A stretch of DNA of 64,000 nt from contig JAKSZP010006700.1 in NCBI GenBank assembly GCA_022478985.1, positions 62,001 through 126,000 on the forward strand, given 5' to 3'. Source of the stretch: Massospora cicadina. Its lineage: Eukaryota; Entomophthoromycota; Entomophthoromycetes; Entomophthorales; Entomophthoraceae. Within the stretch, counting starts at the first letter, position 1. Each line of letters starts with the position of its first letter. A program made the position numbers and the translations under genes. The notes beneath the pieces were generated by a model. The model saw only the letters and a list, made by a program, of their open reading frames with translations. It ran no database searches and was not told the DNA's origin. Of this stretch, positions 26,056 to 64,000 are shown one piece after another.

Positions 26056-26099
26056 AGCCCATTGATCAACCACCAAATAATAAAAATCTTTAGTCGCTG

Positions 26100-31393: not shown

Positions 31394-31720
31394 TTACCCT
31401 CTCATCATTTTGTGGCTCTAACCCCCTTAAGGGGCTTGCGCCAGGGAAAATCTTCTTGTGGTCTGGGGCCAACTTCGTAGCGGCAACGGTTTGCTTTGAC
31501 TGAGATCTTGGCAGCCTGGGGAAAATACTTATAGAAAATGTCGATTAGGTCATGGGTATATGTGCAGTTTCGTGCTGGTACCCAAATGTTTTCCGCTGCA
31601 CTAAATCCCTTCCAGGACACCAGATACTCAAGCCTTTTTTTCTCAGCTAGAGACTACTATTTCCTCTACTTCCCAATCTGCCGCCTCAAACCCAGAAAAG
31701 ATAAGCCTCTAGATCTCTAG
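31248..31720 (-). pseudogene. Element E chromodomain and LTR-entering Pol tail
   Basis: Minus-strand frames give a chromodomain reading MSWKGFSAAENIWVPARNC (31620-31560) followed by LIDIFYKYFPQ. A second frame (31472-31248) crosses the LTR boundary at 31393 and continues ERVMSWLKDDIIMGAYTKDK for ~50 more codons. As in A and B, no stop separates Pol from the LTR. Confidence 0.65.
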
Positions 31721-35632: not shown

Positions 35633-36518
35633 TGTAGAAGAGTGTCTATAGCTCTCCTGTTCTCAACGTGGAAGTGCTTGGTGCACAGGACAACGCTAGA
35701 GAACTAGTTATTTTTAATACATTTACTTAAGCCCAGAAGAGATTGCTTGAGCTGTAATAACCTAGGTTGAAAGCTATTAATAGAGGGAAGAAAAAAATTG
35801 AATTAACAACAAGGTGGGAGTAAACCAAAGTAAGTTTCATACCCAAGCGGTGCACTGAGTGTAAATATAGAGGAGGCACAGGTTGGAGGGAACCTGGGCG
35901 GCATAACAGTGCATGAGAGGATATATTTGCTATTGTTAAAATTAAATTGCTAGCGTTGCATGAAACATCTCAAAGAGGTCCACACACAGAGTTGTACAAG
36001 ATAACATATATAAAAAGTATACTAGCAAAGAGTTTTTATTATAAGGGAAGTTAACCAATGAGAAGATTTGGTCTTAAGGAAACAATTTTAGGAAATTTGG
36101 GGGAACAAACAATCAAAGAAAGTGGTGCTAAGCCGAGGTGCACCAATAAGCGCACTCTTCCATCAGGCAGTAAAATATACTTTGTAATTGACCAAATCAG
36201 GTTATTGACTGTAGGCAAAACTGACCTGAGCTAGAAATTTTGAAAACCATACAGGTTTCAAGACCCTGTTTGCCAAAATACTAATCACATTTTTTATTAA
36301 TAAATAAGCCAGTTTTTCCTAACGCACCTGCTGTTATACAGGGCTAAACTTCTTTTATATCCCTAGGACCAACCTGGGCATACCTCGCCTTAACCCAGCG
36401 TTGATCCAAGGTATGCTTGAGGTCAGAGAGTCCTGACAACTTCCCCTTCTTGGCCTCCTGACATGCAGCTTTGTCCTTAGTGTTTTTCCCATTATGATGT
36501 CATCTTTAAGCAATGACA
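35633..36518 (-). repeat. Element E 5' LTR (right copy)
   Basis: 886 bp, TGTCATTG at 36518 (minus) to CTACA at 35633. An AATAAA signal on the minus strand lies near 36037. The last ~200 bp include a hydrophobic reading (SIFFFPLLIAFNLGYYSSSN) in the place where A and B encode membrane segments, but with stops. Confidence 0.85.
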
Positions 36519-37700
36519 TTGCCACCAAGTGATAGTGAACACCAAATTGGAGATAGAAGTACCAACTGGACTCTATGGGGAAATTATTGGCCCTTATCAG
36601 CAATTGCAGTTTGAGCCCCATATAGTTCAAGGCATTATACTACTGGGACACAGGGAGATAAAGGATTTTTTATAAAATCTCCAAAAAGGACCCTTGAAAA
36701 TCCGCCATCATCAAATAGTGGCGTATCTACACTTGACCTTGTTGAAGAGATCCTTTGGGATCATGAGTTTGGGTTGCTTGATGTATTTGGTCTACCCACC
36801 AAGCCACAGATCGGATTAATGTTAGTGGTTTGCACAAAGAATTAATTGGGTTATTGGAAGAACAAAAAGACCAGATGGTGGCTTTATTTCAAAAATATAA
36901 GGAGATTTTTGCTGTTGATGACCACGATTTTAGAGTGCGCTTGGGGGTGGTCTATTGAATGGACACTGGAGATCATCCCCCCATTAGGTCTTAGCTTATC
37001 CACCAATAAAGGGCAGCTGAGGAAGTTGTCGCCTAGAAAATTGATAAAGTTTCTGGAGCTAGGGTTGCTCAAATCGTCAAAGAGTCCATGGGCTTTGCCC
37101 GTTCTATTTGTAAAAAAGAAAGACGGTACCAATTGGGTGGTGATAGACTGCCAGAAGCTCAACAGTATCACCAAAAAGAACTCATATCTCTTGCCACAGA
37201 TCAACAATGATTTGGATTGGTTAGATGGAGCTTGTTACTTCTCAGCGATGGATTTGATATTAGGTTACTGGCAAATCGAGTTGCCCATTGCAAAACAGAT
37301 TAAATTCTCCATAATCACATCCAAGTGGCTTTTTCAACTGACACATATGTTTCAAGTGCTATGTAACGCCCTAGCTATGTTTCAATGGGCCATTTACACC
37401 ATCTTAGGAGATCTGAAGCTGTTGTGCGTTCATATGTACCTCAACAATATCAAAGTTTTCTCTCAAACATTTTCTGAGCAACTTTTCCATTTGGAGGAAG
37501 TATTCCACCGGCTGGCTGAGGCCAAAATCAAGATCAAGCCCTATAAATGCCACTTCTCTAAGACCAACTTAGTACCTTGGGTTTGTGGTAGACGTGAAAG
37601 GGCTGAAACCTCTCCTGGCCAAAAAGGAGGCTATGCAAAAATGACTCTTCCAAGCAGTAAGCACGCATACAATTAACTTTGGGGATGGTTGGTTACTACC
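36519..37700 (+). pseudogene. Element D reverse transcriptase (catalytic Asp pair lost)
   Basis: Open 276-codon stretch from 36846. Motifs: SPWALPVLFVKKKDGTNWVV, LNSITKKNSYLLPQINNDLD, FSAMDLILGYWQIELP (first Asp kept) and VLCNALAMFQWAIYTILGDL. In place of YLDD the sequence is YLNN at 37437-37448 (CTCAACAAT). Both aspartates have become Asn, each by one G-to-A change, so the enzyme is dead. The part before 36840 is readable only as fragments. Confidence 0.82.
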
Positions 37701-38240
37701 AACGCTTTATATCCAACTTCAGCTGTATTGGAGGTTCGCTGTTTGAGTTAGTAATTTTGATGCCTTGTTTTAAATAGACGAAAAGTTGACAATGTCACTT
37801 TGATACACTCTGGACAACGTTAATCAGTGCGCCAGTGTTAAGCTACGAAAATTATGAGAAAAAGCTTATCATCCAAACAGATGTATCTGTTTCCGCAGTT
37901 GATGCGGTTCTATCCTAAAAGAATGATGAGGGGGAGGAGCACCAAGTTGCATACTGCAGTTGGAGCCTAAAACTGCCATTAATTCAATTATACCATGAGC
38001 AAGAAGGAGTGCTTAGCGGTGATCTACGCATATTAGCAATTTAGGGTGTATTTTCATTTAGTGGGTTGAAAGTCGCAATGGATAATGCTTTGTTATGTTA
38101 GTTGCAAAATCTAAAGGAGTCTGAAGGGCGTCTAGCCCGATGGGCCATCAAACTGCAGGCTTATGACTTCTATATCTCCACTGACCTGGAGCAAAGCACC
38201 AGAACGTCGATTGCTTATCAAGATTACCAACAGTTGCAAT
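37701..38240 (+). pseudogene. Element D RNase H (heavily decayed)
   Basis: Between 37850 and 38230 the plus strand reads IIQTDVSVSAVDAVL-like sequence (the TDAS motif), MSKKECLAVIYAY, then GRLARWAIKLQAYDFYIS near 38130-38180, the end of gypsy RNase H. Stops throughout. Confidence 0.6.
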
Positions 38241-39483
38241 CACAGTGGATCTGAGTGATGTGATGTACAATAAAGCGCTTAGTAGAAAATATGATGACAA
38301 ACCTCCTCAAGTCATAAAGTTATTCAATGAGATGCAAGTAAATACCTTTCAGCAGAACGTGAGTTATATAAGAATATTTGAGATTCTACTGTGAGCTTTC
38401 TGTGACCCTTGGCACAGTCAAGAATTGTAATGAGTGCACACAAGGCAGTCAGACATGGTGGAATGCATAAAACATTAAAATTGTTAAACCCTTGGTAATA
38501 GTGGAGAGAATGAACTTTGACGTGTCTCTAAAATTTACTGCTGTCACCAGTATCAAGTGGAAAAACTGTTCCCCAGAAGGCCCAAACCAACTCGAAAAAG
38601 TACATTTTGCTTGACATATAGTTTCCATTGATATCGTTGGCCACTTTCTGAAGGGAGAAAACTGGTCTATATACATTCTTGTGGAAAGCGATCACTTGAC
38701 CAGGTGGGTTAAGCACTTGAGATACGGGATTTGGAGGCAGTCACAGTGGCCAAGTTCATAATTTGAATGCATAATCCAGCGACATAGCTATTCGCTTTAT
38801 ATCCTCACTGATAACGTAGTAAAATTTATATCTCACATCCTGCCAAAGATAAACGAGCTTATGGTTATCTAAGGGGTTTTGACAATCCCATATCACCCAA
38901 GTACAACGGGATGAATGAGCGAGTTATGGGACCTTGGTGAGCATACTATGGTAATTGGTTACAGATCATTCTTCCAATTGGATTCCCTCTTTTCCAACGC
39001 CATCTTTGCCTAAAACATTAGCTATTATTCTGCCACAGGTAAGGTCCCTTCCAGTTACTATATGGATGGCACCCAGCTCTACCTGCCTTCATATATGCTT
39101 GCGTGAAGATACTAGCAGAAGTGATCTGCAACGTTACTTGACTAACCTGGCTAATAATTAACTTGGGAACTGAAGCATACTCTATCAGCTTGGCTAAAAG
39201 ATAAATAACCAGGCCACCGATTAAGTATGGCTTAGTGGACTAGACCAGTTTAATGAATGAGAGATGGCTCTGGTACTGAACAGCACAGGTTTGGTCAAAA
39301 GCATTTGTTGGCTAACATTTGGGTTGATCCTTATGAGATTTTTGAGAAAATGGACATTGATGCCTACACTATCAAGGACCCTGCAAGCGGTCAGATCATT
39401 AAACAAGTGCATGCAAAGTTCCTCCAGGCATATAAACAATAAGAAATTTAGCATCCGTCAAATGGAGGGTAAAGATAAAATTT
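38241..39483 (+). pseudogene. Element D integrase and Pol tail (broken)
   Basis: Readable pieces: VSIDIVGHFLKGENWSIYIL near 38630-38690 (first Asp), ILTDNVVKFISH near 38800-38830 (second Asp) and YHPSTTGMNERVMG near 38890-38930 (Glu). The last open piece (39257-39442) reads LANIWVDPYEIFEKMDIDAY, then TIKDPASGQIIKQVHAKFLQ. The A/G-rich GGAGGGTAAAGATAAAA (39464-39480) precedes the LTR and is the probable polypurine tract. Confidence 0.7.
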
Positions 39484-40070
39484 TGATATGACTGGATGAT
39501 AAGAATAAAATAACTGCAGCGGAATAGGGTAATATTCTCTGAAACCATGTAATAGCATTACATTGGTAAAATCAGCTCAAAATAAGATGGTAAGGCGCTA
39601 CTGAGCTCAGAATGGATAATTATTAAATCACCTCAAAATAAGCCAATACAGAGATGTCAACTCACAATGAATATTTAGTAACTCGCCTCAAACTAAGGTG
39701 ATAGTGAGATTAAAAAATAACAGACCCTGCTGGGATCTCACAGTTAAGAAAAGAACCAATGAGGATACAGCGGTAAAAATAGCCTAAGTAAGAGGATTGT
39801 TGTCAACCAAAGTCAATGATATAAAATCGAGATGAAAAGGATGGTGAAGGAGGATTGTTGGTAGGTTGGAAGGAACAGTCTCTAACGAGTATTCTGATAA
39901 AATAAACAAAAATAAAGTGATGTGGTTGGAGCTAATTGATACATATATTTTAAGTTCTTTAATTTAGTCACAAGGACCAGAAATCCCCATATTGTCCATT
40001 CGTTGCTCAGAGGGTTCAACCCTGTGCAACTCCTGCGGCATATATCAAAAAAATTGCTGAAATTATAACA
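39484..40070 (+). repeat. Element D 3' LTR
   Basis: 587 bp, matches 25513-26037 with an extra ~60 bp near 39800-39860 (AACCAAAGTCAATGATATAAAATC...). Ends ATTATAACA. Confidence 0.8.
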
Positions 40071-50520: not shown

Positions 50521-51510
50521 ATTCAGCTGGCTGAAGTGACAGAATTTCTCGACTGAGCTCATATCTGAACCGTTTTCTGATACCCAGAAATAATGAATTT
50601 AATTACTCTGAACAAATTATGGACAGCCATTCATGGTGCGCTAAACCAAAAATGCCCAGGCCCAGATGGCATTCCATATGAGTTCTACAAAAAATATTTC
50701 AAATATATATCCCCATTGCTGCTCGCCTCACTTAACCAAAGCCTGTTGGAAACGCGCCTCCTACCAGGAGGACATGAGGCCTTTACTGTCACACTCTACA
50801 AGAAAGGGGATAAGCTTAACTTAGCCAACTGGCGCCCCATTTCTCTAACAAACACAGACACCAAAATTATAACAAAAATCATGGCTAACCGTTTAGGGAC
50901 TGTAGCATCTGCCACCATCTCCCCAGAAAAATTTGGTTTCATCCCCAGAAGGTCAATTTGGGATAACGTGCACTCCGTGGCTAATGCATGTCAGTCCACA
51001 GCCTCAGGAGCACTGGTATTTTTGGACCAACAAAAGGCCTATGATAGAGTAAACTGGGAATACCTAAGGCCTGCCTCCATCAATTACGCCTACCCCCCGC
51101 TTCATCAACTGGGTGATGCTGCTCACAGAATCTGCAACAATGGCAGTGCGTGGTTCAGGCTTCCTAATGGAAGTAGTCCGCCCTCAAAGGGGCTTGCGAC
51201 AAGGCGACCCCCTCAGCCCACTCTTATAAAACTTCAGCCTTGACCCACTACTGCGAAATGTGAATGCCCAACTCACTGGGGTCCATGTGCCAGGCCAAAC
51301 CCCAGTCAAGATGATGGCATTTGCAGATGACTGCGTGGTGGGGGTGTCTAATAATAAAGATGCAAGCGCGCTTGAAGCCCTCATCCAGGAATATTCCCAG
51401 GTAAGCAACGCGACACTGAACGCCTCCAAAACCAAAATCATCCTTCTTGGTCAGTTTCAGAACTGCTGGGCCCCAGCAATTAGTTCCCAACCTGGCCCAT
51501 CTGCTCGCCC
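50521..51510 (+). pseudogene. LINE1 ORF2 reverse transcriptase (broken)
   Basis: 50593-51243 is open: QKCPGPDGIPYEFYKKYF, LANWRPISLTNTDTKIITKI, GFIPRRSIWDNVHSVANA and LVFLDQQKAYDRVNWEYL (first catalytic Asp). In the next frames lie LRQGDPLSPLL near 51200 and MMAFADDCVVGVSNN at 51312-51356, with the catalytic FADD intact. A shift near 51100-51190 and a stop before 51243 break it. Confidence 0.9.
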
Positions 51511-52887
51511 ACGCCCACGCCTTACTAACTCAACACACACCACTCCACTGGTGCTCCCCTTCATGCCACGTCCTACCATAGGACCAGTGCGCCATCTGGG
51601 CGTGTGGATGGAGGCAGGCGGATACGCGTCAGCATTAATGGAGTGCCGTATACTGGACAACGTGACGAAGCGAATCGCCTCTTTCAGAGCCCACCCTACT
51701 ACCCTCACTGGCAGGGTTGTTCTAGCCAACTCTATGCTCCTATCCAAAGTCTGGTTTGGAGCCCACGCCATCCCCTTCTCCCAAGCTTCTTCAAATCCCT
51801 GTATGCCTTGCTGCAAGGATGGCTTTGGTCAGGCCGCCCTCCACCAGTATGGCTAGAGGTCATTTTTGGCCCTCATCATCAAGGTGGCATGGGCCTGCTT
51901 GACTTCAAAGCCCATGCTGCCAAGATACTGGGCACCTGGATCGCGGCCATCACCGCTCCTACACTCCCATCCCAACACTGGTCCTGTGCAGCCCGCTCCA
52001 ACTTCTCCCGAGCCTTGGGCCTCAACAATCCATCAAACTTTCCACTCCCTGATGAAATACCTCGCATCACACACATCAGCCACAGGTCCTCACGGGACTA
52101 AAACCCACTACAAACGAATCCTACTCTCCATGCGAAGCGCAGAGTGGAGAATTTGTATTAGCGGACATACAACCCAAAGAGGCCGCCCCTCTCCTCAGTT
52201 CACACAAGAGGTACAGGGGCTACCCATCCATGATGGCGTGATCCCCATTCGGCCCCATGTCCTATCCAGGGTGGACTACCTGGACATGATAGACATCCCT
52301 TATTCCACTGAGACCCAAAAACTATCTGGAAATACGCACACCATCCTCTGTTGCAGCCTCAAGTCCGCTCCCATGTGTGGCGGTGCCTGAGGCGGGTGTA
52401 TCGTACAGCTGAGCGCTCTAACGCTTTACACTCATCCTGTGTCATGTGGGGCCAGTACGGAACGCTTTTCCACCGCCTGGAGAAGTTCCCCACCTCTAAA
52501 GTGATATGGCGCGAAGTTCAACGTCTGCTGGGCCAGGATCAAACGCATCCCTTCAGTCTGTCAAGAGATATGTTTGCTCTATCAATGGCCTCCTCCCTTC
52601 CACCCTCCCTCTGTGCTCTGGTGGTTGCAATCGCCATGTGGACCATCCACACGATTTTCTTAGATGCCATCGCAGGCTCCACCCCCACCCTCCCAGAAAC
52701 TGTCCACAGATTCCGGTCTCATTTGGTGGACCACTTTCAAGCGTGGATATTTGGATACCTCCCACCGCGTCGCCAACAGCTGGTCTCCTCCTGGTTCCCA
52801 GTCTGGTTCATTAAATCAGACCCTTTCCTCCACACGTGCTCAATAGTGGCTACGGCCCCTTCACACGTCCCCTCACCCTCCCCATAA
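51511..52887 (+). pseudogene. LINE1 ORF2 C-terminus with Cys-His region (broken)
   Basis: Includes RPTIGPVRHLGVWMEAGGYA and VLANSMLLSKVWFGAHAIPF (L1-like thumb region), then GGMGLLDFKAHAAKILGTWI. At 52370-52480 it reads HVWRCLRRVYRTAERSNALH followed by SSCVMWGQYGTLFHRLEKF. LINE3 has CTVCG at this point, so the second Cys of the zf-RVT motif has become Trp here. The tail (52560-52887) is hydrophobic and ends VPSPSP and a stop. Confidence 0.85.
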
Positions 52888-53019
52888 GTGGCGTTCCCTC
52901 TGGCAACAAGAGATAGCATCGCTTCTCTGGGGTGCCTCCCCTGGTACTAAGTTTATCTTTCCTGAGTCATATTTGGAAGTGTCCGTCCCATGGTCGGCCT
53001 TCCCTGCAATAAATTTAAA

Positions 53020-53499: not shown

Positions 53500-53504
53500 G
53501 GAGA
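53500..53504. repeat. Element B target-site duplication (left)
   Basis: GGAGA, repeated exactly at 59493-59497 after the right LTR. Confidence 0.9.
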
Positions 53505-54328
53505 TGTGACGGTTGAGGTCTATCCTCAGCATCACAAAGCCCTGATCTTTGGTAAGACAGGGCAGGCTGTGTCTGTAGGTATGGAGGAGGAGGGGGCGCT
53601 GGTTCTGGCAAGGACGCCTAAGGGGCTGTAGCTTGGAGTAGGCCGAGGAGCAAGATGGGCGTCCAAGTCGGGACAAAATGGAAAATGAGTAAAATGGGTA
53701 GTTTTGAGATTTGATTTGGATTTGAATTGAGAATGGAAGGAAACAGGTGCTTGGGAGTTTCGCAGTTCGATTGGGATTCAAATGGAACTGGCGTGGCCCG
53801 ATGAGGATTGGAACTGGCACGGAATCATTGAGTAAAGATTCCGCGATCCTGCTGTAAAGTTTACACCAAACATCATTTAAGATGGCACCATAAGCTTATA
53901 TTATATTTTATTTTAGCTTTTAACATGTGTATATAGGGAAGGAACTGTGAGCTGGAGGCTCCTCAGTTCTGTTTTCTATCAACTTGGCTAAATATTAAAT
54001 AAAAGAACTTAAAATTCATATATTTATAATTTGGGTTTATTTTAAAGATATTGCCTAACTGCAGCCATGTTTGGCTTAAATCAACAAGAGTTGGACTTTG
54101 AGAGTGAGCTTGGGAGGGCTATTGCCTCCCTCTATACCTTGTCTTGGAGTCAAGGCATGTTGCTGGGGTTAAGTATACTTGCAACTGTCTTCCAGGGGGT
54201 GCTTATCCTATCTTGTAGCGCACGCACCAGGAGAGTAGTATCAGGAGTCATGTCAGCCCTATGGTCTTTAACATGGATCCTGTTGCCCAACTCATTCGTG
54301 GCTCATTGGAAGGAGCCAGTGCGTTACA
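53505..54328 (+). repeat. Element B 5' LTR
   Basis: 824 bp. TATA box TATATA at 53930-53935, predicted RNA start about 53961-53965, AATAAA at 53998-54003, leader ATG at 54067. So U3 is about 53505-53960 and U5 runs from shortly after 54003 to 54328. The last 262 bp are coding for the Gag leader. Confidence 0.93.
53930..53974 (+). promoter_or_regulatory. Element B core promoter and self-primer sequence
   Basis: TATATA (53930-53935) lies 35 bp before AGTTCTGTTT (53965-53974). The latter is the perfect 10-nt complement of AAACAGAACT at 54331-54340, just after the LTR. In Tf1 the first nucleotides of the RNA fold back onto such a site and are cleaved to prime minus-strand synthesis. The 3' LTR has the same pair of elements (TATATA 59099-59104, AGTTCTGTTT 59134-59143). 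Confidence 0.7.
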
Positions 54329-54735
54329 TTAAACAGAACTCATTTACTTTCCTGTCGTTATGGTGGCAAGCAAAAGAGGTGCCAGAAAAAGTTGTGTTTC
54401 CAAAGTGGTATAACCATACTGCAACACTCTTAATAGTAATATTCTCCACCGCCTTTTTGCTTCATGAATTTTACCGGGTTTTAGAGTGTGTGTCCCAAGA
54501 TGGTGGGAAAGTGGTAGGGCCTGGGAAGGACAAAGGAAGAATATCCACGGTTTTAAAATCGGAAGACTTGAAACTGATCCACCAGACGTTTAGTCAGGTT
54601 CAGTTTCAGGGACGTTTGACAAAGGCAGCGGGTGGAGAGGATTCGTTTGCCTTGCAGTTAAGTCAGGTTCTGTTGGCACTTCCAGTAAAGCAGTCAAACT
54701 GGGTGCGAGAACTTTTAGAAGAACAGTCAGGTTAC
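54067..54735 (+). CDS. Element B membrane-spanning leader fused to Gag N-terminus
   Basis: Open frame from ATG 54067 (Kozak-like GCAGCCATG); the frame stays open to 54969, but after ~54733 it is out of Gag register. Residues 1-29 are polar (QQELDFESELGRAIASLYTL). Hydrophobic segments lie at about 30-50 (GMLLGLSILATVFQGVLIL), 57-79 (VVSGVMSALWSLTWILLPNS) and 118-132 (ATLLIVIFSTAFLL). The LTR ends within residue 88, the primer site encodes KQNS (89-92), and from ~160 it is Gag (LKSEDLKLIHQTFSQVQFQG). Element A has the same frame and the same segments. No domain name is known to me; membrane anchoring of Gag is inferred. Confidence 0.8.
54331..54340 (+). promoter_or_regulatory. Self-priming primer-binding site of element B
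   Basis: AAACAGAACT begins 2 bp after the LTR end and is the exact complement of AGTTCTGTTT at 53965-53974. There is no TGG as in tRNA-primed elements. It lies inside the leader-Gag reading frame. Confidence 0.72.
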
Positions 54736-55290
54736 CCACATCGGTGGAGGAATGTCTGGATTGGATTGACCGTGCAGCATGTCCAGATGAGGCGCAGGAT
54801 TCGGCCTGGGCGGCGTTACTGCAGTATGGTCATGGGAAGAAGTCAGTGGAGGAGTATGGCCAGATGTTCCGCGCATTGGCAAGAGCAGCAAATGCACCTG
54901 AGTCTCAGCTTCCGCGCATGTTTCGCCAAAACTTGCAAGCTGATTTATTATTGGCAATGGCGGCGGTGAAACCTGCAGCGACGTTGGAGGAAGAGGTGGG
55001 TTTAGCCTTGCAGGTAGAGCGACAGTTGAGTTTGGTATGGGCCCGTCAGAATTTGTGCGACCCCCAGGGGGATTCCGAGGACAGAGTGGTGGAAGAAGGG
55101 CAGGTTCAGAGCCCATACATGGTTCTAAGGGGTTTAGCTATGTGGAGGAAGGGAAGAAGAGTCAAGGAAATCCTGAGGGTATTGTTGAGGTGCGGGAGAC
55201 AGGGATTCCCATCGAGATTACCGCTCAGGATCCTGAGGCTCAGAATAAGAATGCTCCTTATAATTTTCGCAAGAAGCCAGTGAATCCAGT
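54736..55290 (+). pseudogene. Element B Gag capsid region (shifted frame)
   Basis: From about 54736 Gag continues in another frame: SVEECLDWIDRAACPDEAQD, SAWAALLQYGHGKKSVEEYG, MFRALARAANAPESQLPRMF and RQNLQADLLLAMAAVKPAAT with LEEEVGLALQVERQLSLVWA. This is the capsid pattern found in A (SAWSALLNLTQGKMSVMEYA). A single-base indel near 54733 separates it from the leader frame. No CCHC knuckle is present. Confidence 0.85.
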
Positions 55291-55680
55291 GCCTCAAAAT
55301 AAACCGCTTACTCCATCTTATCCTTATCTGATTTTGCCCGTCAATGTGCTTGTGAGGGATGAAGGAAGGGATTGCGGTGAAGTTCTAGTTTTGATTGACA
55401 CCGGAGCTGGGGAAAATTATGTTGAGGAGAAGTGGGCAAGAAGCCATGGATTGTCATTACAGAAGGATGGATGGGTGACGTTGGCAGACGCCTCCAAAAA
55501 ACGGCGTTATGGCGAGTGCAGGCCAAGGTCCTGTTGAGGCAAGGCCCGGAGGTATTCAGGGAGGAGTTTCACGCCGTAGCTCACCTGCCACACTTGGTGG
55601 TGCTGGGGATGAGATGGTGGCACCATTTCTGCCCACAGTTTGATATGAAGAGAGAGGGTTCTGTTGTCGCCTAGAGGTCA
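55037..55680 (+). pseudogene. Element B protease (broken)
   Basis: 55037-55537 reads a Gln/Gly-rich linker, then LTPSYPYLILPVNVLVRDEG and EVLVLIDTGAGENYVEEKWA. That is the retropepsin active site DTG at about 55397-55405. After a shift near 55500 the second half continues at 55510-55674 as VQAKVLLRQGPEVFREEFHA and LPHLVVLGMRWWHHFCPQF. Order and spacing match element A. Confidence 0.85.
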
Positions 55681-55692
55681 GGGGACGTGTGA

Positions 55693-56710
55693 ATGGACGT
55701 TTCAGTCATAAGGTTCGTTGGTGAAGCACATGGGCGGAATCACCTCAAGTGTGCCAGTGGAAGGATTGCCGAGGGAGTATCAGATTTTGCGGAGGTGTTT
55801 GAGCCTAAAGGTGATGCGTCTTTTTCGCCTACAGGGGATTTTGCATTTGGATGCCGGTTCAAGGAAGGCTCTGAGCTACCAAAGGGCTGTCCAGTCTATC
55901 CGTTGAATCCATGGGCCCGAGAGGCATTGGAGGATTATGTCCATAAGATGCTGGATATGGGTTTGATTGTGCCTTCCAAGTCGCCGGTGGTTTCGCCAGT
56001 CCTGTTGGTTCCCAAGTCAGGGGGGAGTTACGTCCTAGTGTTGATTTCCGACGCCTTAATGAGGTGACGGAACCTGACCCCTATCCCATGCCACTCATGG
56101 AGAACATTCTGCCCATGGTATCCGGGTGTGGGGTGTTCACCAAATAAGATTTAGTGGACGCTTTCAATCAAATTCCTGTTTGGCCTGAGCACCAGCAGAG
56201 GCTTACAGCATTCAAATGTCATTTGGGAAACTTCGAATACAGGGTTATGCCATTTGGGCTACGCAATGCCCCTGCAGTTTTCCAGCGCATGATTGATCAT
56301 GTATTGGGGGACTTAGTGGGTAGGTGTTGTGTTGCTTATATGGATGACATCCTGTTGTTTTCCAGATCGGCACAGGACCATGTGAGGGATGTGAAAAGTG
56401 TGTTGGAGGTAGTTAGGAACGCGGGCTTGAAGTTGAAGCCGTCCAAGTGCGAGTTCAATAAAATCGGTGTCCTTCCTAGGGAACGTGGTCCTCCAAGAAG
56501 GATAGCGATCTGTCCTGATAAGTTGCGGGCGGTGCGGGAATGGAAAGCTCCTGGGAATAGGACTGAAGTGCGAAGCTTTTTGGGGGTGGTGAATTTCGTG
56601 CGGAGGTTTTCTAGGGATCTGGCCCAATGGGCTGTGCCGTTGACAAGACTGACAGAAAACGTGCCGTTCGTTTGGGGGAGGCTGAGGAGAGGGCATTTCA
56701 GCAAGTGAAG
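55693..56710 (+). pseudogene. Element B reverse transcriptase (broken)
   Basis: Linker VSDFAEVFEPKGDASFSPTG, then ELPKGCPVYPLNPWAREALE, MGLIVPSKSPVVSPVLLVPK (to 56067). After a shift, DLVDAFNQIPVWPEHQQ (first catalytic Asp; 56148 on, after a stop), RVMPFGLRNAPAVFQRMIDH, AYMDD at 56337-56348 (intact), GLKLKPSKCEF and VRSFLGVVNFVRRFSRDL. Shifts occur near 56030-56060 and 56470. The TAA at 56145-56147, in FTK-stop-DLVDAF, matches Leu or Lys in element A. Confidence 0.88.
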
Positions 56711-57302
56711 ACGAGTCTGCTGACAGCCCCGGTTCTGGCACACCCTGACCCAAACAAACCATTTGTGGTAGAGACTGACGCGTCAAATTTTGCACTTGGA
56801 GCTGTGTTGTTGCAGGAGGGTAAGGATGGGGTTGAACATCCTGTCTGTTACTTCATTTGGAAGATGGCACCAGCTGAAACCAACTATCCAGTTTACGATA
56901 AGGAACTTTTGGCAATAGTTGCAGCTTTAGGGAGTGGAAACACCACCTATTATATGCCAGGCACCCAGTTGTCATCTGAACGGACCATCGAGCCTTAGAA
57001 TACTATAAGTCCCCATGCCTGATGAACCAGAGAGGCAGGCCCGGTGGCACTTAGAGTTGGTTCAATATGACCTGTGGATCGAATATAAGCTGGGAAAACA
57101 AAATATCTTTCCAGATTTATTGAGCCGTGATTCTGGACTGGTGTTTTCTGATGAGGAGTTGAGGAAGTTTAATACAGCCACGATGTTGCCACAGAACCTG
57201 TTTGCAACTATCCAGGGCTGGAGAGAAGGAATGGCAGGAAGAATCCGGACTGCACAGCAAAGATGTGAGCTGGGCCAACGGATAAGAGAAGAGACAGGAT
57301 AA
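56680..57302 (+). pseudogene. Element B RNase H and linker (broken)
   Basis: 56680-56930: LGEAEERAFQQVKTSLLTAP, FVVETDASNFALGAVLLQEG (catalytic Asp) and PVYDKELLAIVAAL (Glu). A frame change follows, then 57015-57300 with RQARWHLELVQYDLWIEYKL and GKQNIFPDLLSRDSG, the RNase H end, plus ~50 codons of linker (LPQNLFATIQGWREGMAGRI) as in element A. Confidence 0.87.
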
Positions 57303-58296
57303 GGTGAGGCAAGCAGGGGGCATGCGGGATTCTCAGTTCGGGGTGGTATCATACGCCATGAGGGAAGGATTTGGGTCCCTGTGAAGAGTCTGCAACAAGA
57401 GGTAATGGCAGCTAATACGACCATCCTCTGGCAGGTCATCCCGGTCAAGAGAAGACGTTAGATCTTGTTTGCCATCACTATTTGTGGAGAGGTGTGGGTG
57501 CGGCGGTGCGGAAGTATGTTTCACGTTGTGTGGTTTGCGCCAGGGCAAAGGCCCAACGGGTGGCACCAGGGGGAAATTGAAGCCACTTCAAATTCCTTCT
57601 AGACCATGGTCCTCAGTGAGTGTGGACTTCATCACAGGACTGCTCAAGTCACAGGGGATGGATGCCTTGATGGTGGTGGTGGATCGCCTGACTAAATATG
57701 CAGAGTTTTTCCCTTGTTGGTCAACCATTTCTGCAAAGGTGGCAGGACAGATTTTTGTAAATGAGGTTTCTCCAGACATGGGGTGCCTGAAGAGATTGTG
57801 TCGGATCGTGGTCCACAATTTACATCTAAATTTTGGCTCCACATGTTGGGGAATCTAAGGATCAAGGCTTGCCTTTCGTCAGCATACCATCCTCAGTCAG
57901 ACGGCCAAACTGAGAGAGTAAATCAGATATTGGAGCAATATTTGAGGTGCTATGTCTCAGGGCGGCAGGATGACTGAGTATATTGGGTGAAGCTGGCTCA
58001 ATTTGCTTATAACAATCATAAGCATTCATCCACGAGTATGACCCCGTTTTTCGAAAATCACGGCCAACACCCAGAGGGTATGGGGCCCAGGGAGCAAGGT
58101 CGGAATCCAGCGGCAGATGAGCTGTCACGACATACCCGGGACACCCTGGAGCTCCTGAAGAAGAATTTGGTGGTGGCGGTCGTGGCTCAGAAGAGGGAAG
58201 GCGGACCGGCATAGATCTGAAGGTAGAGCTTTCAAGAGAGGTGATTGGGTCTTAGTGAATGCTCAGAACTATGCCTTGCCTGTAAGGAGCTAGAAA
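57303..58296 (+). pseudogene. Element B integrase (broken)
   Basis: Zinc region at 57425-57560 (HPGQEKT-like, then CVVCARAKA). Core: SVSVDFITGLLKSQGMDALM (57615-57675, first Asp), [20 protein letters not shown] (57786-57845, second Asp) and [20 protein letters not shown] (57878-57940, Glu). Then LAQFAYNNHKHSSTSMTPFF (57993-58052). Shifts near 57300, 57410 and 57775 and a stop near 57978 break it. Confidence 0.87.
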
Positions 58297-58644
58297 TTGG
58301 GGCCGGTAGCATTGGGCCCATATCAGGTAGTGAGGGCGGTGAACGAGGTGGCATTTGAGCTGAAGCTCCCAGAAGGGTCAAGAGCCCATCCGGTGTTGCA
58401 TGTAACGCAGCTCAAGCCATTCTTTGGCCAGCCACCTGAAAGGGTTTCTCCTTTATTTCCAGCTGGAGGAGGAGCGAAGAGTATGAAGTTGAGGAGATTC
58501 TTGACACCAAAGTGGTGTGAGGACTTCATTTATTCTTGGTACGTTGGGTGGGTCATCCTATTAAGGAGTCCACATGGCAGTCAGCTAGGGATTGTGCCTG
58601 ATGTCCTGAGAAAATCCAAGAGTTCTTCCTGTCTAGGGGGGTGA
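58297..58644 (+). pseudogene. Element B integrase tail and chromodomain (broken)
   Basis: MGPVALGPYQVVRAVNEVAF and RAHPVLHVTQLKPFFGQPPE are the integrase C-terminal module, as in A. The chromodomain begins YEVEEILDTKV (58476-58510, other frame). It continues through a stop to YVGWVILL/VRWVGHPIKE and STWQSARDCA near 58570-58600, then EKIQEFFLSRG at the polypurine tract. Loss of one G from the G run at 58636-58641 would explain why the frame now ends at the LTR border instead of continuing GDVTVEVYPQHHIALIF as in A. Confidence 0.78.
58635..58644 (+). promoter_or_regulatory. Polypurine tract of element B
   Basis: AGGGGGGTGA directly before the 3' LTR (TGTGACGG). Same form as in A (GGGGAGGGTGA). 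Confidence 0.8.
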
Positions 58645-59492
58645 TGTGACGGTTGAGGTCTATCCTCAGCATCACATTGCCCTGATCTTTGGTAAGACAG
58701 GGCAGGCTGTGTCTGTAGGTATGGAGGAGGAGGGGGCGCTGGTTCTGGCAAGGACGCCTAAGGGGCCGGAGCTTGGAGTAGGCCAAGGAGCAAGATAGGC
58801 GTCCAAGTCGGGACAAAATGGAAAACGAGTAAAATGGGTAGTTTTGAGATTTGATTTGGATTTGAATTGAGAATGGAAGGAAACAGGTGCTTGGGAGTTT
58901 CGCAGTTCGATTGGGATTCGAAATGGAACTGGCGTGGAACCGTTGAGGATTGGAACTGGCACGGAATCATTGAGGATCGGAACTGGCATGGAATCATTGA
59001 GTAAAGATTCCGCGATCCTGCTGTAAAGTTTACACTAAACATCATTCAAGCTGGCACCATAAGCTTATATTATATTTTATTTTAGCTTTTAACATGTGTA
59101 TATAGGGAAGGAACTGGGAGCTGGAGGCTCCTCAGTTCTGTTTTCTATCAACTTGGCTAAATATTAAATAAAAGAACAAAATTCATATATTTATAATTTG
59201 GGTTTATTTTAAAGATATTGCCTAACTGCAGCCATGTTTGGCTTAAATCAACAAGAGTTGGACTTTGAGAGTGAGCTTGGATGGGCTATTGCCTCCCTCT
59301 ATACCTTGTCTTGGAGTCAAGGCCTGTTGCTAGGGTTAAGTATACTTGCAACTGTCTTCCAGGGGTGCTTGTCCAATCTTGTAGCGCACGCACCAGGAGA
59401 GTAGTATCATGAGTCATGTCAGCCCTATGGTCTTTAACATGGATCCTGTTTCAACTCATTCGTGGCTCATTGGAAGGAGCCAGTGCGTTACA
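58645..59492 (+). repeat. Element B 3' LTR
   Basis: 848 bp, near-identical to 53505-54328. Differences include an extra AGGATCGGAACTGGCATGG-type repeat unit near 58975 and single-base changes in the leader region (59234 on). Confidence 0.93.
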
Positions 59493-59497
59493 GGAGA
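59493..59497. repeat. Element B target-site duplication (right)
   Basis: GGAGA, identical to 53500-53504. Confidence 0.9.
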
Positions 59498-59780
59498 GGT
59501 AAAGTTCTGAAAGCACCAAGTCAGAGTTGGTGCAGGGGTGAACTTCCTATCATTGGGAATATTTGCACCCAAAACAATCTTTTTCTTAAGCTAAAGCAAT
59601 TGTCTGAAATTACCTCTTCAATAATGTGGGAGAGGAATAAGGGCTTAGGAATTGTCCATGTACTCAGTTTACGGTGATACCTGAAGCCAATAATTTTATA
59701 GAATATTCATTACCTCTACTATAAGTGAAAGTTAAGGGTCCGTCACAAATAGACTAAGCTTGTTGCTTCTAAATGTAATA
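59498..59780. other. Unassigned sequence between B and G
   Basis: No coding or repeat feature recognised. Continues 53038-53499 after removal of B. Confidence 0.3.
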
Positions 59781-60940
59781 CAGTTAGGGTTTACAGGACC
59801 AGGCCAGAAATTTTGCTTGTAGTTAGGAGAGCCCGTAACTCATTATCAGCTTGTCTCTCTTTTGTAACAGTTTTAACTAAGCTTTTCATAGCCTCAAATT
59901 GAAGCTGAGTGATACGTTGAGCCAATTTTCTCATGTTTTTCTCATGTTCCTCAACTTTTAGAGGAGAAACATCTTTATCTAAAAGGGCAGGTATACCTGT
60001 TTTTCGCACATACAGAACATAGAGTTGTGACATTTTCTGGATCTGGCAATAAATATTCCAGTATGCAATTAGTGCACTAGTAGGAATTGATCCCAGTGAA
60101 TTGAAACAAAAATGACATTAGAGCAGGATAAAGAATCAAGGTTTCATTTGCTCTCTCCACCGTCCCATTGGTAGAGGGATTATACGAAGCTGAGAAGAGT
60201 TGTTGGGTTCCCATGGACGTGTCCAGGATATCAACTACTCTGGAGGTGAAGTTCTTACCATTGGCACAAAGTAAAACTTGAGGACATTCATGAAGAGTGA
60301 AAATGATTTGATGTAAAAACGTGTCTGTGGCCTTGGCCGTTTGCGCATGAAGAGCCACGGCTTCAACCCACTTAGTAAAATGGTTAATGACTACTAGGAT
60401 AAACTTGTTTTCCCAAGTAGTCTTAGGGAGAGGACCTACTAAGTCGAGGCTGATGGTGTGGAATAGTTTTGAGGGGTAGTTGGTTGAAATTCAAATCAAG
60501 CCTTGGAACTGATTGCTATTACGCTTGATGCATGCATCCAAAAATTTGACTATAATTTCATAATTTCTTCCCAATAATGCCGATCCCTGATCCATTAATA
60601 GGGGTTCTTTGCTCCCCCATGGCTTAAGGTCGAGAGAGCTTCCAGGATAACAGGTAAACGTTCTGAGGGCACGAAGGAAAGGCAGCCACTTTGCCCTCAC
60701 CTGCTTGTACTTTTTCTACTCTTCATTTTAGTTTTGTGGGAGAGCTGAGCTAACATTTTCTGGACTGGATCATCCTCATCATCCCAGTCATTGATGATCA
60801 TTAGAAGGTCATATAATCTCTCTACCTCACTATTGTTCAAATTTAGGATAGGCAGCTGAGTTAACCCATCGACATACATGTAATTAGTTCCCAAACAATG
60901 TTTAATCTTCATGTCATTATGCGAAGGCTTTAGAGCCCAG
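59781..60940 (-). pseudogene. Element G integrase (C relative, broken)
   Basis: Minus strand, 60912 to 59791: MKIKHCLGTNYMYVDGLTQL (end of RNase H), a zinc-region remnant near 60600, then 60358-60077 with VLLCANGKNFTSRVVDILDT (second Asp region; CDNG is CANG, so the Asp is lost) and SASYNPSTNGTVERANETLI (Glu). The tail (60033-59791) reads GIPALLDKDVSPLKVEEHEK, like GIPALLAKDLFYSRVEE of C. No 3' LTR is visible before 59780. Confidence 0.8.
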
Positions 60941-61340
60941 CGTGCTTACCTCCTAGTACAAACCTTCATATTATGTAGCCATTTAAAAGAAGCATGTTCA
61001 GTAAACACAGTGAAAGTAGTGCAATACAAGAAAGTGCGTTAGTGTTTACAGCTAATAAAATAGCAAGGCACTCCTTCTCTGTGACGCTGTAGTTGCGTTC
61101 TGCCTTTGACAGCATCTTAATAAAATAGGATACATCATGATCTGCGCCGTTTTCATCTAAAGGTGCTAAAATGGCCCCAACGGCATAGTCTGAGGCGTTG
61201 GTAAACAAGATAAAAGGTTTAGTACAATTTGGGTGGCGTAGGATAGGACGTTGTTGCAGAAGTTGCTTCAGCGTTTCAAATGCAGCCTTTTGTTCTGCAC
61301 CTCAATGGAAAGGAATGTTTGTGTCAATAGGCGGACAAAG
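60941..61340 (-). pseudogene. Element G RNase H (broken)
   Basis: 61208-60966 is open: MFTNASDYAVGAILAPLDEN, GADHDVSYFIKMLSKAERNY and SVTEKECLAILLAVN. Equivalent to FTDASNYAVWAILAKLDEN of C; the first catalytic Asp is Asn here (TNAS), again a G-to-A change. Confidence 0.82.
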
Positions 61341-62095
61341 GGCTCGCTGAGCTGAGCGAACTTTAAAATAAACTGATGGTAATATTCCATCATGACCAGA
61401 AATACCTGAATATCCTGTAGATTCTTAGGGGCAATTTTGATATGGCTTCAATTTTGACCTTTGAGGGTTTGGTTTGTACTAGGGAAATGGCGTTTCCAAG
61501 GAAATATAAATTCATATGAAGAAGTGCACTTGGAGGGTTTTGTCTGATGTTGAAGTCACATAAGCGTCGAAAACTTCCTTCAGGTGAGAAGGAAGTTCGT
61601 TAATGGTCTTTGAAAACAGTGTTGTTATTGAGATAGATGATGATGCAACTTAACTTCCTGTCCTGCAGAATATGGTCTGTGGCTCGAGGAAAAGTTGCGG
61701 GTGCATTGCACAATCCTTGAGGAAGTCGTGTGGGTTGGAAAAGACCTTCACTTCAAATGAGAGCACATCTCTCCTGGTCTTTGGGGAAAAGGACCATTTG
61801 CAGATAGCCAATAGCAAAGTCCATGGTGGAGAAGTTAAAGCAAGAGATTTGGGCCATGCATCATCAATGCGGGGATAGATAGCTATCCTTTTTTGTGAGG
61901 TTATTTAATTTGTTGTAAACCATGAATATCCGATGACCTCCGTTTTTTTGATAAGCAAGTGAGGGGAAGACCAAGGGCTTTTAAGGAATAGTAACTTTGC
62001 GTCGAGTAACTGCTTGAACTCAGTCCTCATATGCTATTCTTCCACCTTTGCTTGTGGTAGGGTTTTGACTGAATGAGATGGGAATTAATCACATC
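61341..62095 (-). pseudogene. Element G reverse transcriptase (catalytic Asp pair lost)
   Basis: Minus strand, broken. Near 61635-61615 it reads IIIYLNNNTVFSKTINEL; relatives have YLDDITVLSKTFNE. YLDD has become YLNN (61635-61624) by a G-to-A change in each Asp codon. Other motifs are visible in pieces between 62090 and 61340, such as the LPQGLCNAPATF region near 61715-61690 and a connection segment near 61430-61370. Confidence 0.75.
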
Positions 62096-62599
62096 AATGG
62101 AATGGCTCCAGTCTTTCGTTTGTCCATATTCAGTATCTGACTTTAAGAATATGTAGCTATATTATTCTAGTAAAGTATGGACTTTTTCCAGATCATCTGG
62201 GGTCAGAGCATCCATAAAATGGACGTTGGGTAAGGTACATAACAGGTTATCCGTTGGCAAGCCCAAATCCATTGTAGAGACAATGAAGTGGATACGTTCA
62301 ATGTCATCCATTGGAACTAGGAAGCTTCTGCCAATCTTTTGGTATTTTTGTATGACCATGTCTTTTCTGGTGAGGTTTCCCGCAGAAGAATAATAGGTCT
62401 ATGGTAAGATGTGTATAGTATCCCAGGCAATACACGAGGCTCCAAGGGGCTAACGACCTCAATACTTATGAGGTGCAACAAGCAGTGGTGTGGGATTTGG
62501 AGCGTGAACTTTTTTTAGCACTAGTGGTGCCCAACCCAAAAGGGGGAGCTGCAATGCATCTTTATTTGCAAATGAGCGAAATAAAAGGATTATTGTAAA
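62096..62599 (-). pseudogene. Element G protease-RT linker
   Basis: 62359-62162 reads MVIQKYQKIGRSFLVPMDDI and LLCTLPNVHFMDALTPDDLE with KVHTLLE after it, matching MVILKHQQIGRDLLIPVEIY and LVCTLANVHISYEMAPDKLE of element C. The part up to 62599 is decayed. LINE4 interrupts G at about 62600. Confidence 0.75.
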
Positions 62600-64000
62600 G
62601 TCTAAATTTTACTTGGGGAAGGCCGACTATGACACAGAAACTTCCAATATGTAAACTAACAAGCACTAATATAAATTAGAGGCAACCCAGAGAAGCAACG
62701 CTGTCTCCTGTTGCCAGCGGGAACGCCAAATAAAGGAAGGGGGTATCATGCGTAGAGGCTTGTGCTACTATTGAGCACATATAAAGGAAAGGGTCTGAAG
62801 TGATGAACCAGACTGGAAACTAGAATGAGACCACAGTCATTGATGGGATGGTAGGTACCCAAACAACCATTCTTGAAAGTGGTCCATGAGGTGCGACTGG
62901 AAACGGCGTACAGCTTCCTGGAAAGTGGGAGTAGAGCCTGGAATGCATCCAAGACAACCTTGTGGATACTCCACATTTCAATTGCTACCACTAAGGCTCA
63001 GAGGGAAGATTGTTTAAAAAATTCAAGGACAAAGAGAATATTTCCATAAATAGGCTAAAGGTCTGTGTTTGCTCCTGGAAAAAAAGACGTTGAACCTCAC
63101 GCCAGATCGCTTTTGACGGAGGGCCCTCTTCCAGGCGGTGGACCAAACTCCCATACTGGTCACACACAACACATGAGGAGTGTGATGCATTGGAGCGCTT
63201 GGTAGTATTGTATGCTCATTTTAAGCAGTGCCACACATGGGAACAAACATGCGGCTGCAAAAGAGGGTGATGGGCGTTCTTCCAGATAGTTTTCTAGGTT
63301 TCTAGGGAGTAGGATGTCCAAAATGTCCAGATAATCCACTCTGGTCATGATAAGGGGACCTCCTTGGTATCAAACTGTTCTGAAAGTCTTGGCGTTTGTA
63401 CTTCCTGTTTGAAGCGTGGAGTAGGGCAACCCCTCTGGGCGGGTGCCCACTGATGCAAATTATCCACTCAGCGCTCCACATAGAGAGAGGAGAATTCATT
63501 TGAAGTGGGGCGACGTCCCACGCGGGCCCACAATAAAGGGATATGAGTCAAAATAAAAACAGAAAATGAGAATGGGTAGGATTGCTGAGTCCCATGGCGC
63601 CGGAAAAATTGGAGAGGGCATTGCATGACCAGTGTTGGGCTTGGGGTGTGGGGTGGTGACTGCAGCGATCCAGGTGCCAAGTATTTTGGCGGCATGGGCC
63701 TCAAAGTTGAGCATGACCATACCACCACTATGGCGAGGGCCAAACAAGACATCCAGGCGCACTGGCGGTGGCGGCCTAACCAAAGCCACACTTGCAGGAG
63801 GGCATATAATGAGGTGAAGATTGATAGAAAAAGTGATTGCATGGGCCACAAACTGAACTTTATATAGGAGCATAGAGTTGGTTACACAACCCTGCCTGGT
63901 AGGGAAGTTTGGTGGGCACTGAGGGGGGCGAGGCGTTTTGTGACATTGTCCAGGATATGATGCTCCATCACCAATGAGGCGTACCCTCCTGCCTCCAGCC
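62600..64000 (-). mobile_element. LINE4: 3' part of a LINE, continuing past the window
   Basis: On the minus strand the element ends CATAGTCGGCCTTCCCC plus AAGTAAAATTT (62630-62605), the tail seen in LINE1 (CATGGTCGGCCTTCCC). The coding part matches the LINE1 ORF2 C-terminus. 63873-63496 reads PPPPVRLDVLFGPRHSGGMV and MLNFEAHAAKILGTWIAAVT (LINE1: GGMGLLDFKAHAAKILGTWI). A Cys-His remnant lies near 63250-63150, and the tail at 62991-62746 has VVAIEMWSIHKVVLDAFQAL. Frames are broken. RT and the 5' half are outside the window. Confidence 0.85.

Follow-up and report, generated by a model that had tools for sequence, protein, structure and literature searches.

Chromoviruses of Massospora cicadina whose LTRs appear to encode the start of Gag and, in several families, the end of Pol

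Introduction

Can the LTRs of a retrotransposon carry the two ends of its own polyprotein? LTRs are usually treated as non-coding. A stretch of 64,000 nucleotides from Massospora cicadina (assembly GCA_022478985.1, contig JAKSZP010006700.1, positions 62,001 to 126,000 of the forward strand), here called the window, holds two LTR elements, A and B, for which the original prediction proposed such an arrangement. According to that prediction, the last ~260 bp of the LTR (U5) encode the N-terminus of a leader that runs in frame through the primer-binding site (PBS) into Gag, and the first codons of U3 encode the end of Pol. Here we describe a computational analysis of both elements and of related copies in the same genome.

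Results

Layout and class of the two elements

Element B is complete, and its features in the window are as follows.

53505-59492, plus strand: element B, likewise a chromovirus, with TG...CA ends and a 5-bp TSD, GGAGA
53505-54328, plus strand: 5' LTR, with TSD GGAGA at 53500-53504
53930-53935, plus strand: TATA box (TATATA)
53965-53974, plus strand: predicted RNA 5' end and self-primer, AGTTCTGTTT, 35 nt past the TATA-box start and complementary to the PBS
53998-54003, plus strand: AATAAA, probably marking where R ends
54067-54328, plus strand: LTR-encoded part of the leader, from its ATG through codon 87 to the first base of the next (262 bp)
54329-54501, plus strand: remainder of the leader outside the LTR, holding a third hydrophobic segment (about residues 114-139)
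54331-54340, plus strand: PBS, AAACAGAACT, complementary to 53965-53974 and in frame as part of IKQNS
54502-55283, plus strand: Gag region, which a frameshift near 54730 interrupts in the window copy
58500-58649, plus strand: Pol end, a chromodomain remnant with stops, read by eye in a damaged frame; last codons EFFLSRGVM
58636-58641, plus strand: G run of the polypurine tract (6 G)
58645-59492, plus strand: 3' LTR, with TSD GGAGA at 59493-59497
58646-58690, plus strand: coding start of U3, VTVEVYPQHHIALIF
58647-58649, plus strand: stop codon TGA of the Pol end, just inside the LTR

Element A lies on the opposite strand.

3364-9641, minus strand: element A, a chromovirus, with LTRs at 9641-8656 and 4384-3364 and TSD TATGG
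8656-9641, minus strand: 5' LTR, with TSD TATGG at 9642-9646
8985-8994, minus strand: predicted RNA 5' end and self-primer, decayed to AGTTCCTCTT in the 5' LTR; AGTTTCGTCT in the 3' LTR
8656-8896, minus strand: LTR-encoded leader, from its ATG, 80 codons and one base (241 bp)
8644-8653, minus strand: PBS, AGATAAAACT in the window copy and AGACGAAACT in most of the other copies examined
7535-8377, minus strand: open frame of Gag and protease, both Pfam matches being below the family cut-offs
6520-7176, minus strand: reverse transcriptase (RT)
5990-6601, minus strand: RNase H, from Pfam
4123-4821, minus strand: integrase end, chromodomain and tail in a single open frame, the tail extending 86 codons into U3
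about 4414-4563, minus strand: chromodomain, within the preceding frame
3364-4384, minus strand: 3' LTR, with TSD TATGG at 3359-3363; the U3 start codes VMFKALPDHHIALIF

The domain order of A, from Pfam and open frames, is Gag-PR-RT-RH-IN, the integrase core being placed from open frames; Pfam finds Chromo (E 4.8e-13) and SH3_Tf2-1 (E 5e-13) at 4123-4794 on the minus strand. A chromodomain at the integrase C-terminus and this order place A among the chromoviruses (Ty3/gypsy, Metaviridae), and RT precedes the integrase and chromodomain, the reverse of the Ty1/copia order. The nearest relatives of its RT are ENA proteins (62-65%), and a viral scan with the RT gave no match.

The LTRs match as protein

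The U5 ends translate as LWALTWALLPNCFVAVFRDPVRHI in A and LWSLTWILLPNSFVAHWKEPVRYI in B, and the U3 starts of the 3' LTRs as GDVMFKALPDHHIALIF in A and GDVTVEVYPQHHIALIF in B. The two LTRs have no significant similarity as DNA (blastn, best E 0.099), whereas 35 of 80 residues are identical between the leader proteins (E 1e-18 in a one-sequence search). In tblastx the best group (E 1.8e-10) comprises both LTR ends in their coding frames, together with a 22-codon piece from a different frame; for the weaker pieces E is 0.003 or worse. The idea that the LTRs of A and B code at both ends is thus borne out, as is that of a U5-encoded leader of about 260 bp. The HHIALIF motif placed at the U3 start is present in the 3' LTRs of both elements; the 5' LTR of B reads HHKALIF.

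In both elements the frame opens in the last 80-87 codons of the LTR and continues through the LTR end and the PBS into Gag, as predicted. Among copies picked by U3 DNA alone it is whole in 19 of 39 for B and in 10 of 20 for A, the latter fetched from 39 U3 matches outside the window; a looser rule gave 23 of 39 for B, and the lower count is used because four of these end in the wrong frame. In two further copies, L016 and L056, leader and Gag share one frame and no stop separates them; in L016 this open frame has 724 codons, starts with the leader, takes in a weak Gag match and reaches RT. Amino acid identity between these two is 0.45 for the LTR part, 0.38 for the rest of the leader and 0.36 and 0.47 for Gag, a comparison in which the LTR part of the leader behaves no differently from the internal parts. 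The genome also contains solo LTRs in which the leader frame is whole.

The 5' UTRs of A and B (98 and 102 nt) have no AUG, which is weak evidence, as 219 and 136 of 1000 shuffled versions are also AUG-free. In B, an upstream AUG is found in 3 of 39 copies and the leader ATG is kept in 38 of 39. Many A copies share a TGA after the leader (TGA, CGA and CAA in 12, 4 and 4 of 20); it looks like CpG decay, since the other copies have CGA or CAA there. In this chromovirus group the LTRs encode the start of Gag and, in several families, the end of Pol.

Selection on the leader frame

Further families were sought with a motif pattern built to omit most A and B copies, which hit 94 places, a few of them A- or B-like in appearance, compared with none for the reversed pattern. 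Sixteen stretches were fetched from these places. They are mostly decayed copies picked by protein motif, and many hold stops; two, L105 and L110, deviate from the usual end past the motif, and L110 was excluded from one count. The codon counts took in A, B, L119, L106, L108, L111 and L112; the other 12 of the 16 stretches were omitted, being either too damaged or too similar to one of the rest.

Between families, leader dN/dS is 0.10-0.35 in 12 of 21 pairs, several with dS of 2-3, and the other nine are saturated at synonymous sites. This is the check that the original prediction proposed, and its outcome supports selection on the U5-encoded protein. With the eight codons fixed by the search pattern removed, pN/pS is 0.53 (0.46-0.60); with them kept, and in gap-free columns, it is 0.48 in frame compared with 0.84 and 1.46 out of frame, where the values look near neutral. 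Differences by codon position number 649, 483 and 899, third positions differing most. Within family A, U3-picked copies give 0.36 in frame compared with 0.90 and 1.03 out of frame. In U3-picked copies of family B the leader value is 0.36 (0.22-0.63), compared with 0.45-0.53 for non-coding U3 and 0.39-1.17 for parts of the 5' UTR, so that within this family alone the leader does not fall clearly below non-coding regions. Earlier within-family values of 0.21 (A) and 0.24 (B) weakened on U3-picked copies and were set aside, because most copies had been picked by protein and only gap-free matches used (36 of 38 loci for B and 30 of 30 for A).

The Pol tail in U3

The Pol frame runs into U3 in the window copy of A and in F1, F1b and F3, represented by one copy each; outside the window, the frame was decided by the final residues of the chromodomain region. 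Among four further 3' LTR copies of family A the tail is in frame in two (L059, L065) and out of frame in two. Family B differs, the tail being in frame in only 2 of 18 copies. A tract of six G leads to SRGVM and a stop in 10 of the 18 and a tract of five G to SRG and a stop in five; one has another change with a stop, and two read through. A translated tail is therefore unsupported in most of these 18 B copies, and the proposal that the U3 start encodes the end of Pol stands for A, F1, F1b and F3 only. Nor can the one-base loss postulated at 58636-58641 restore the Pol end of B: the chromodomain is read in frame 0 mod 3 and GDV in frame 2 mod 3, and losing one base does not bring the two together.

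Self-primer and PBS

The RNA 5' end of every element was predicted from sequence, and all matches given here are of that end to the PBS. In B the match is 10 of 10 in 34 of 36 sequences, some places being counted in two loci. In A, with G-U pairs counted, it is 10 of 10 in 5 of 14 copies and 9 of 10 in 6 of 14; in the window copy it is mostly lost (6 of 10 with G-U, 5 of 10 by letters). It is 9 of 10 in F3 and 7 nt in L112, with no clear match in L103, L104, L110 or L116. Both sites, RNA start and PBS, have a different sequence in each of A, B and F3. That the two sites stay complementary while changing between families points to self-priming. By prediction, the RNA begins about 100 nt upstream of the leader ATG, and transcripts should therefore include the leader.

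Character of the leader

Two features go beyond the original prediction, the self-priming PBS and the hydrophobicity of the leader. By the GES scale, the LTR part of the leader of B holds two hydrophobic segments, at residues 30-48 and 61-79. The whole leader has three segments on GES and two on Kyte-Doolittle in B, and four and three, respectively, in A, at matching positions in the two elements. The third, past the LTR, is strongly conserved among four sequences drawn from three families. When the first 160 residues of B are shuffled, three Kyte-Doolittle segments arise in 5 of 2000 cases; A itself has three and B two.

No relative of the leader was found in Pfam, in a protein search whose query ends in the frameshifted part, or among the 7,997 best candidates scored in a further protein search. 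A PDB profile search with relatives gave weak matches to capsid C-terminal domains (E 0.027 and worse) at about 240-304, and among the 60 of its 76 rows that were listed none fell in the leader; its best-scoring row was a designed repeat protein (E 0.0011). A row for the leader alone (E 0.58) was disregarded as weak. The AlphaFold model is poor (pLDDT 49.7). By its position at the start of the Gag frame, the leader occupies the place expected for a matrix domain, and its hydrophobic segments suggest that it may span a membrane.

Discussion

How far is this arrangement new? In the usual Tf1/sushi layout, Gag coding starts downstream of the LTR and the PBS. The elements described here resemble Tf1/sushi chromoviruses (Tf1, Tj1, sushi, Tcn1) in their integrase C-terminal chromodomain, Tf2-1-like SH3 domain and self-complementary PBS, the match reaching 9-10 of 10 in 11 of 14 A copies. 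They differ in a Gag that starts in U5 with a hydrophobic leader and in a PBS that is coding, a variant that does not touch what defines the Tf1/sushi group; we found no Tf1/sushi element with such a leader in the literature searched. The Ty1 gag stretch inside the LTR is short, compared with 80-87 LTR codons with two hydrophobic segments here, and Ty1 belongs to another superfamily. It nevertheless shares with the present elements a gag that begins in the 5' LTR, according to the available text of its description (PMC3522557). The available parts of other accounts describe self-priming from a PBS adjoining the LTR in Tf1/sushi elements (PMC6317226, PMC4600332) and, in the CRM and Reina chromoviruses of plants, a Gag-Pol ORF that extends into the 3' LTR (PMC3605345, PMC3059260), as the Pol frame does here; those parts describe no LTR-encoded Gag start for CRM or Reina. 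In CRM group A, as excerpted there, the CR motif itself lies inside the LTR and the PBS is complementary to tRNA-Met, unlike the tail after a complete chromodomain and the self-complementary PBS seen here. Troyka (PMC12440569) and LTR models (PMC3601003), in the parts available, have no bearing on the leader. LTR coding as such thus has precedents in Ty1 and CRM/Reina, and it is the LTR-encoded, membrane-type Gag leader that looks new.

Could the LTR ends be conserved as DNA? Promoter, polyadenylation, dimer and integrase-end signals do occur in U5 and at LTR ends, and the protein signal is weak within family B alone. We nevertheless regard this explanation as very improbable, given that the A and B LTRs match as protein without significant DNA similarity, that third codon positions differ most and that wrong frames give higher pN/pS. 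For the tail of B the balance is even: it may be an untranslated leftover of Pol, the integrase part being retained only in A, F1, F1b and F3, as the stop or frame break in 16 of 18 copies suggests. Against this, the B tail still matches A as protein, one sequence of 18 residues is common to 32 of 39 U3-picked B copies, which may simply be young, and in a nanopore-based assembly, if this is one, the lengths of G runs could be in error.

The leader might also be a true LTR-encoded N-terminus of Gag that never enters a membrane, acting as a hydrophobic assembly or matrix domain or being removed by the protease. Hydropathy alone cannot discriminate here, Kyte-Doolittle finds just two segments in B, the structural model is of low confidence and no sequence relative has been found. 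We consider this reading rather unlikely, in view of the extended hydrophobic segments that A and B have at corresponding places, the strong conservation of the third and the rarity of three such segments in shuffled B sequences, a number that A attains and B does not. Still less probable is a separate or short product that shares its frame with Gag and acts apart, as an env-type or fusogen-like accessory, for example in cell-to-cell transfer. Its precedents, in the parts of the reports available, are the short transmembrane protein sORF2 of env-less LTR elements of the Drosophila MDG1 group (PMC11952523) and a predicted transmembrane helix in an extra ORF of a sunflower Athila element (PMC11728184). 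The elements described here are likewise env-less, with a predicted transmembrane-type protein; sORF2, however, is a separate small ORF, whereas the hydrophobic part here is fused to Gag and lies in the LTR. The stop-free frame from leader to Gag in L016 and L056 argues against a separate product, and the stop in the A copies does not look like a conserved end.

We therefore favour, as the probable reading, self-priming chromoviruses of the Tf1/sushi kind that encode one polyprotein across their LTR borders and whose leader is a multi-pass membrane anchor. Transcription would start in the LTR, 32-35 nt past the TATA box, and the first AUG, some 100 nt on in U5, would open the hydrophobic leader. 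Translation from it would continue over the LTR end, the PBS and the third hydrophobic segment, which extends to about residue 140, before reaching the capsid, protease and RT parts. In families A, F1, F1b and F3, Pol would not stop at the chromodomain or the polypurine tract but take in 15-17 or more codons at the start of U3. Synthesis of cDNA would be primed by the RNA's own first 10 nt, paired with the PBS. Reverse transcription would regenerate both coding pieces, since the template for U5 is the 5' end of the RNA and that for U3 its 3' end. As self-primer, PBS and a few codons are one sequence, RNA start, priming and protein must change together, as comparison of the families indicates that self-primer and PBS have done. 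The leader itself would replace the matrix domain and tether Gag-Pol to the membrane on which particles assemble.

The LTRs of these elements thus hold the start of a polyprotein, and in several families also its end, under selection, and a gene model begun at the PBS would lack roughly 90 N-terminal residues of Gag. More tentatively, this may be a chromovirus lineage whose Gag opens with an integral-membrane matrix domain, encoded for the most part in the LTR and on through the PBS, and whose capsids the leader assembles on a cellular membrane. If so, each solo LTR with a whole leader would be a promoter with a ready membrane-anchor frame opening into flanking DNA, providing a means of making new host membrane proteins and perhaps a step towards enveloped particles without env. 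First-look leader candidates in the genome number thousands (17,297 and 13,705, with 150 of each set scored). The whole-leader solo LTRs offer a testable route to new chimeric genes, and a membrane-type Gag leader in an env-less chromovirus would bear on the origin of membrane-assembling viruses from capsid-forming elements.

Elements A and B

The assembly holding the window comprises 1.47 Gb in 16,968 contigs, and two elements with distinct LTRs, A and B, are located in the window as follows.

53505-59492, plus strand: element B, with TG...CA LTRs and a 5-bp duplication, GGAGA
3364-9641, minus strand: element A, with the duplication TATGG

The two LTRs of B share 93.5% identity, those of A 90.1%. 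For A, Pfam recognises reverse transcriptase (RT, 1.6e-35), RNase H (6.4e-34), a Tf2-1-like SH3 domain (5e-13) and a chromodomain (4.8e-13), with Gag and protease scoring under their family cut-offs. Both elements belong to the chromoviruses and are old and damaged.

The surroundings hold other repeats. Direct repeats that have diverged to 81-90% identity form three further pairs (16980-23307, 30673-36523 and 25509-40070), which look like the LTRs of other elements of greater age. A second Ty3/gypsy-like lineage is marked by integrase matches at 59601-62507 and 19643-22576, places 74% alike on opposite strands, and LINE-like reverse transcriptase remains (Pfam RVT_1) lie at 50581-53004 and 62616-64000, with 51606-53004 70% alike to 64000-62616 on the opposite strand. 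Elsewhere in the genome a single cox1 match was found, of 56 residues (L123, G000:C13519:9504-9671); a lone exon embedded in this way in other sequence is consistent with a mitochondrial gene rich in introns.

A Gag leader encoded in the LTR

In both elements the Gag frame begins inside the LTR, probably in U5, with a hydrophobic leader, open from an ATG at 54067 past the LTR end at 54328 in B, and from 8896 past 8656 on the minus strand in A. Ty1 Gag likewise starts in the LTR (PMC3522557), and A and B resemble it in this respect; for a Ty3/gypsy element, searches of open-licence papers turned up no hydrophobic Gag leader encoded in the LTR. The A and B LTRs have no significant DNA similarity in blastn (best E 0.099); their leader proteins are identical at 35 of 80 aligned positions (E 1e-18). 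The top tblastx group between these LTRs joins both LTR ends in coding frames with one 22-codon piece in another frame, the remaining pieces, some antisense, having E 0.003 and worse. Relative to its 5' LTR, the A 3' LTR carries an in-frame partial duplication in the leader (3364-3640), near LTWAL...LTWALLPN.

Searches of the genome with the leader proteins gave 17,297 candidates for B and 13,705 for A, of which 150 each were scored (identity 90-100% and 83-100%). Among loci with a gap-free match, the majority chosen by protein similarity, the LTR part is stop-free in all 19 distinct B sequences (36 of 38 loci) and in 29 of 30 A sequences; among copies chosen by U3 DNA the leader frame is intact in 19/39 for B and 10/20 for A. 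Some of the intact B copies are solo LTRs flanked by target duplications (L086, L077, L074), and their frame, open to the LTR end, leads on into the neighbouring DNA. A degenerate pattern for WxLTWxLLPN, its proline codon set to exclude most A and B copies, matched 94 genome places, against none for the reversed pattern. Most of the 16 stretches fetched among these continue to recognisable FVA...P(V/I)xH-like ends (L105 and L110 less clearly), and most show decay. No leader of A, B or F3, a further family, matches the three direct-repeat regions of the window at E 0.01.

Selection on the leader codons

Codons were compared between families for seven sequences (A, B, F3, L111, L112, L106 and L108; 21 pairs). 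Leader dN/dS lies between 0.098 (A-F3) and 0.348 in 12 pairs, several with dS of 2-3, and synonymous sites are saturated in 9 of the 21. With the eight pattern-fixed codons removed, pN is 0.383 and pS 0.727, a ratio of 0.53 (0.46-0.60), with 649/483/899 differences at the three codon positions; over gap-free columns including the fixed codons, pN/pS is 0.48 in frame versus 0.84 and 1.46 out of frame. Within families the in-frame value is 0.36 for A (0.21-0.65; out of frame 0.90 and 1.03) and 0.36 for B (0.22-0.63; out of frame 1.06 and 0.63). The selection signal is weaker inside families than between them, and family B alone proves little, since its non-coding controls (U3 in three frames, 0.45-0.53; 5' UTR, 0.39-1.17) come near the leader value.

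The Pol tail in U3

Pol ends in the 3' LTR in CRM and Reina elements (PMC3605345, PMC3059260), and Pol of the window A copy similarly reaches into its 3' LTR, the chromodomain frame reading on through 86 codons of U3; the first 15-17 of these are common to B. This tail is in frame in two of four additional A 3' LTR copies (L059, L065) and in one copy each of the families F1, F1b and F3, with F3 having the initial part of the motif only. The five pooled tails (A, B, F1, F1b, F3) give pN/pS 0.42, with 36/37/75 differences by codon position. For B, where the chromodomain frame was assigned from its last residues, six G give SRGVM* in 10 of 18 copies and five G give SRG* in five; another change brings a stop in one, and two read through (L003, L087). 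In size, contig number and Ty3 and L1 content the assembly is similar to that of Massospora cicadina MCPNR19, described as 1.488 Gb in 19,694 scaffolds, GC 41%, from nanopore and Illumina reads (PMC9584336, PMC10515909); if the two correspond, the G-run lengths in B may contain nanopore errors.

Probable self-priming

The primer-binding site (PBS) begins two nucleotides past the LTR and doubles as coding sequence for IKQNS or IRRNS; it reads AAACAGAACT in B and, in most of the A copies examined, AGACGAAACT. Its complement, the putative self-primer at the predicted RNA 5' end, lies downstream of the TATA box, 35 nt from its first base in B (AGTTCTGTTT) and 32 nt in A (AGTTTCGTCT). The match is 10/10 in 34 of 36 B sequences, certain places being counted in two loci. 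Counting G-U, five of 14 A copies match at 10/10 and six at nine positions, and the window copy at six (five as letters); most A copies show decay of the middle CpG. F3 pairs AACTTCGTCT with AGACAAAGTT (9/10) and L112 pairs AGTTCCA with TGGAACT; no clear match was seen in the stretches inspected at L103, L104, L110 and L116. Self-primer and PBS vary jointly from family to family, as self-priming, described as typical of Tf1/sushi chromoviruses (PMC6317226, PMC4600332), predicts. An AATAAA downstream of the predicted RNA start places the leader ATG probably within U5.

The leader as part of Gag

At L016 a single open frame runs 724 codons from the leader ATG to the end of the available stretch; along it Gag is matched weakly (E 0.074), and where the stretch stops an RT start is matched at 1.7e-5, under the cut-off. 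Alignment with L056, L053 and L119 shows the leader conserved over the LTR end and PBS, together with a third hydrophobic stretch, LMVIFSxxFLL. The LTR-encoded part evolves like the internal parts (L016-L056 identity 45%, and 38, 36 and 47%, respectively). Many A copies (L039-L068) share a stop after the leader, SEF*QAL, the codon being TGA in 12, CGA in four and CAA in four of 20 readable copies, the pattern expected if a single CpG codon had decayed repeatedly.

By the GES scale three hydrophobic segments are present in B (30-48, 61-79 and 114-132) and four in A, of which three lie at positions corresponding to those of B; the Kyte-Doolittle scale gives three in A and two in B, and three arise in 5 of 2000 shuffles of B residues 1-160. 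Confidence in the structure model is low (pLDDT 49.7), yet the model is helical at the hydrophobic segments. Profile positions about 240-304 weakly resemble retroviral capsid C-terminal domains, and the leader therefore occupies the place expected of a matrix domain. From its hydrophobic segments, the leader is likely to span a membrane.
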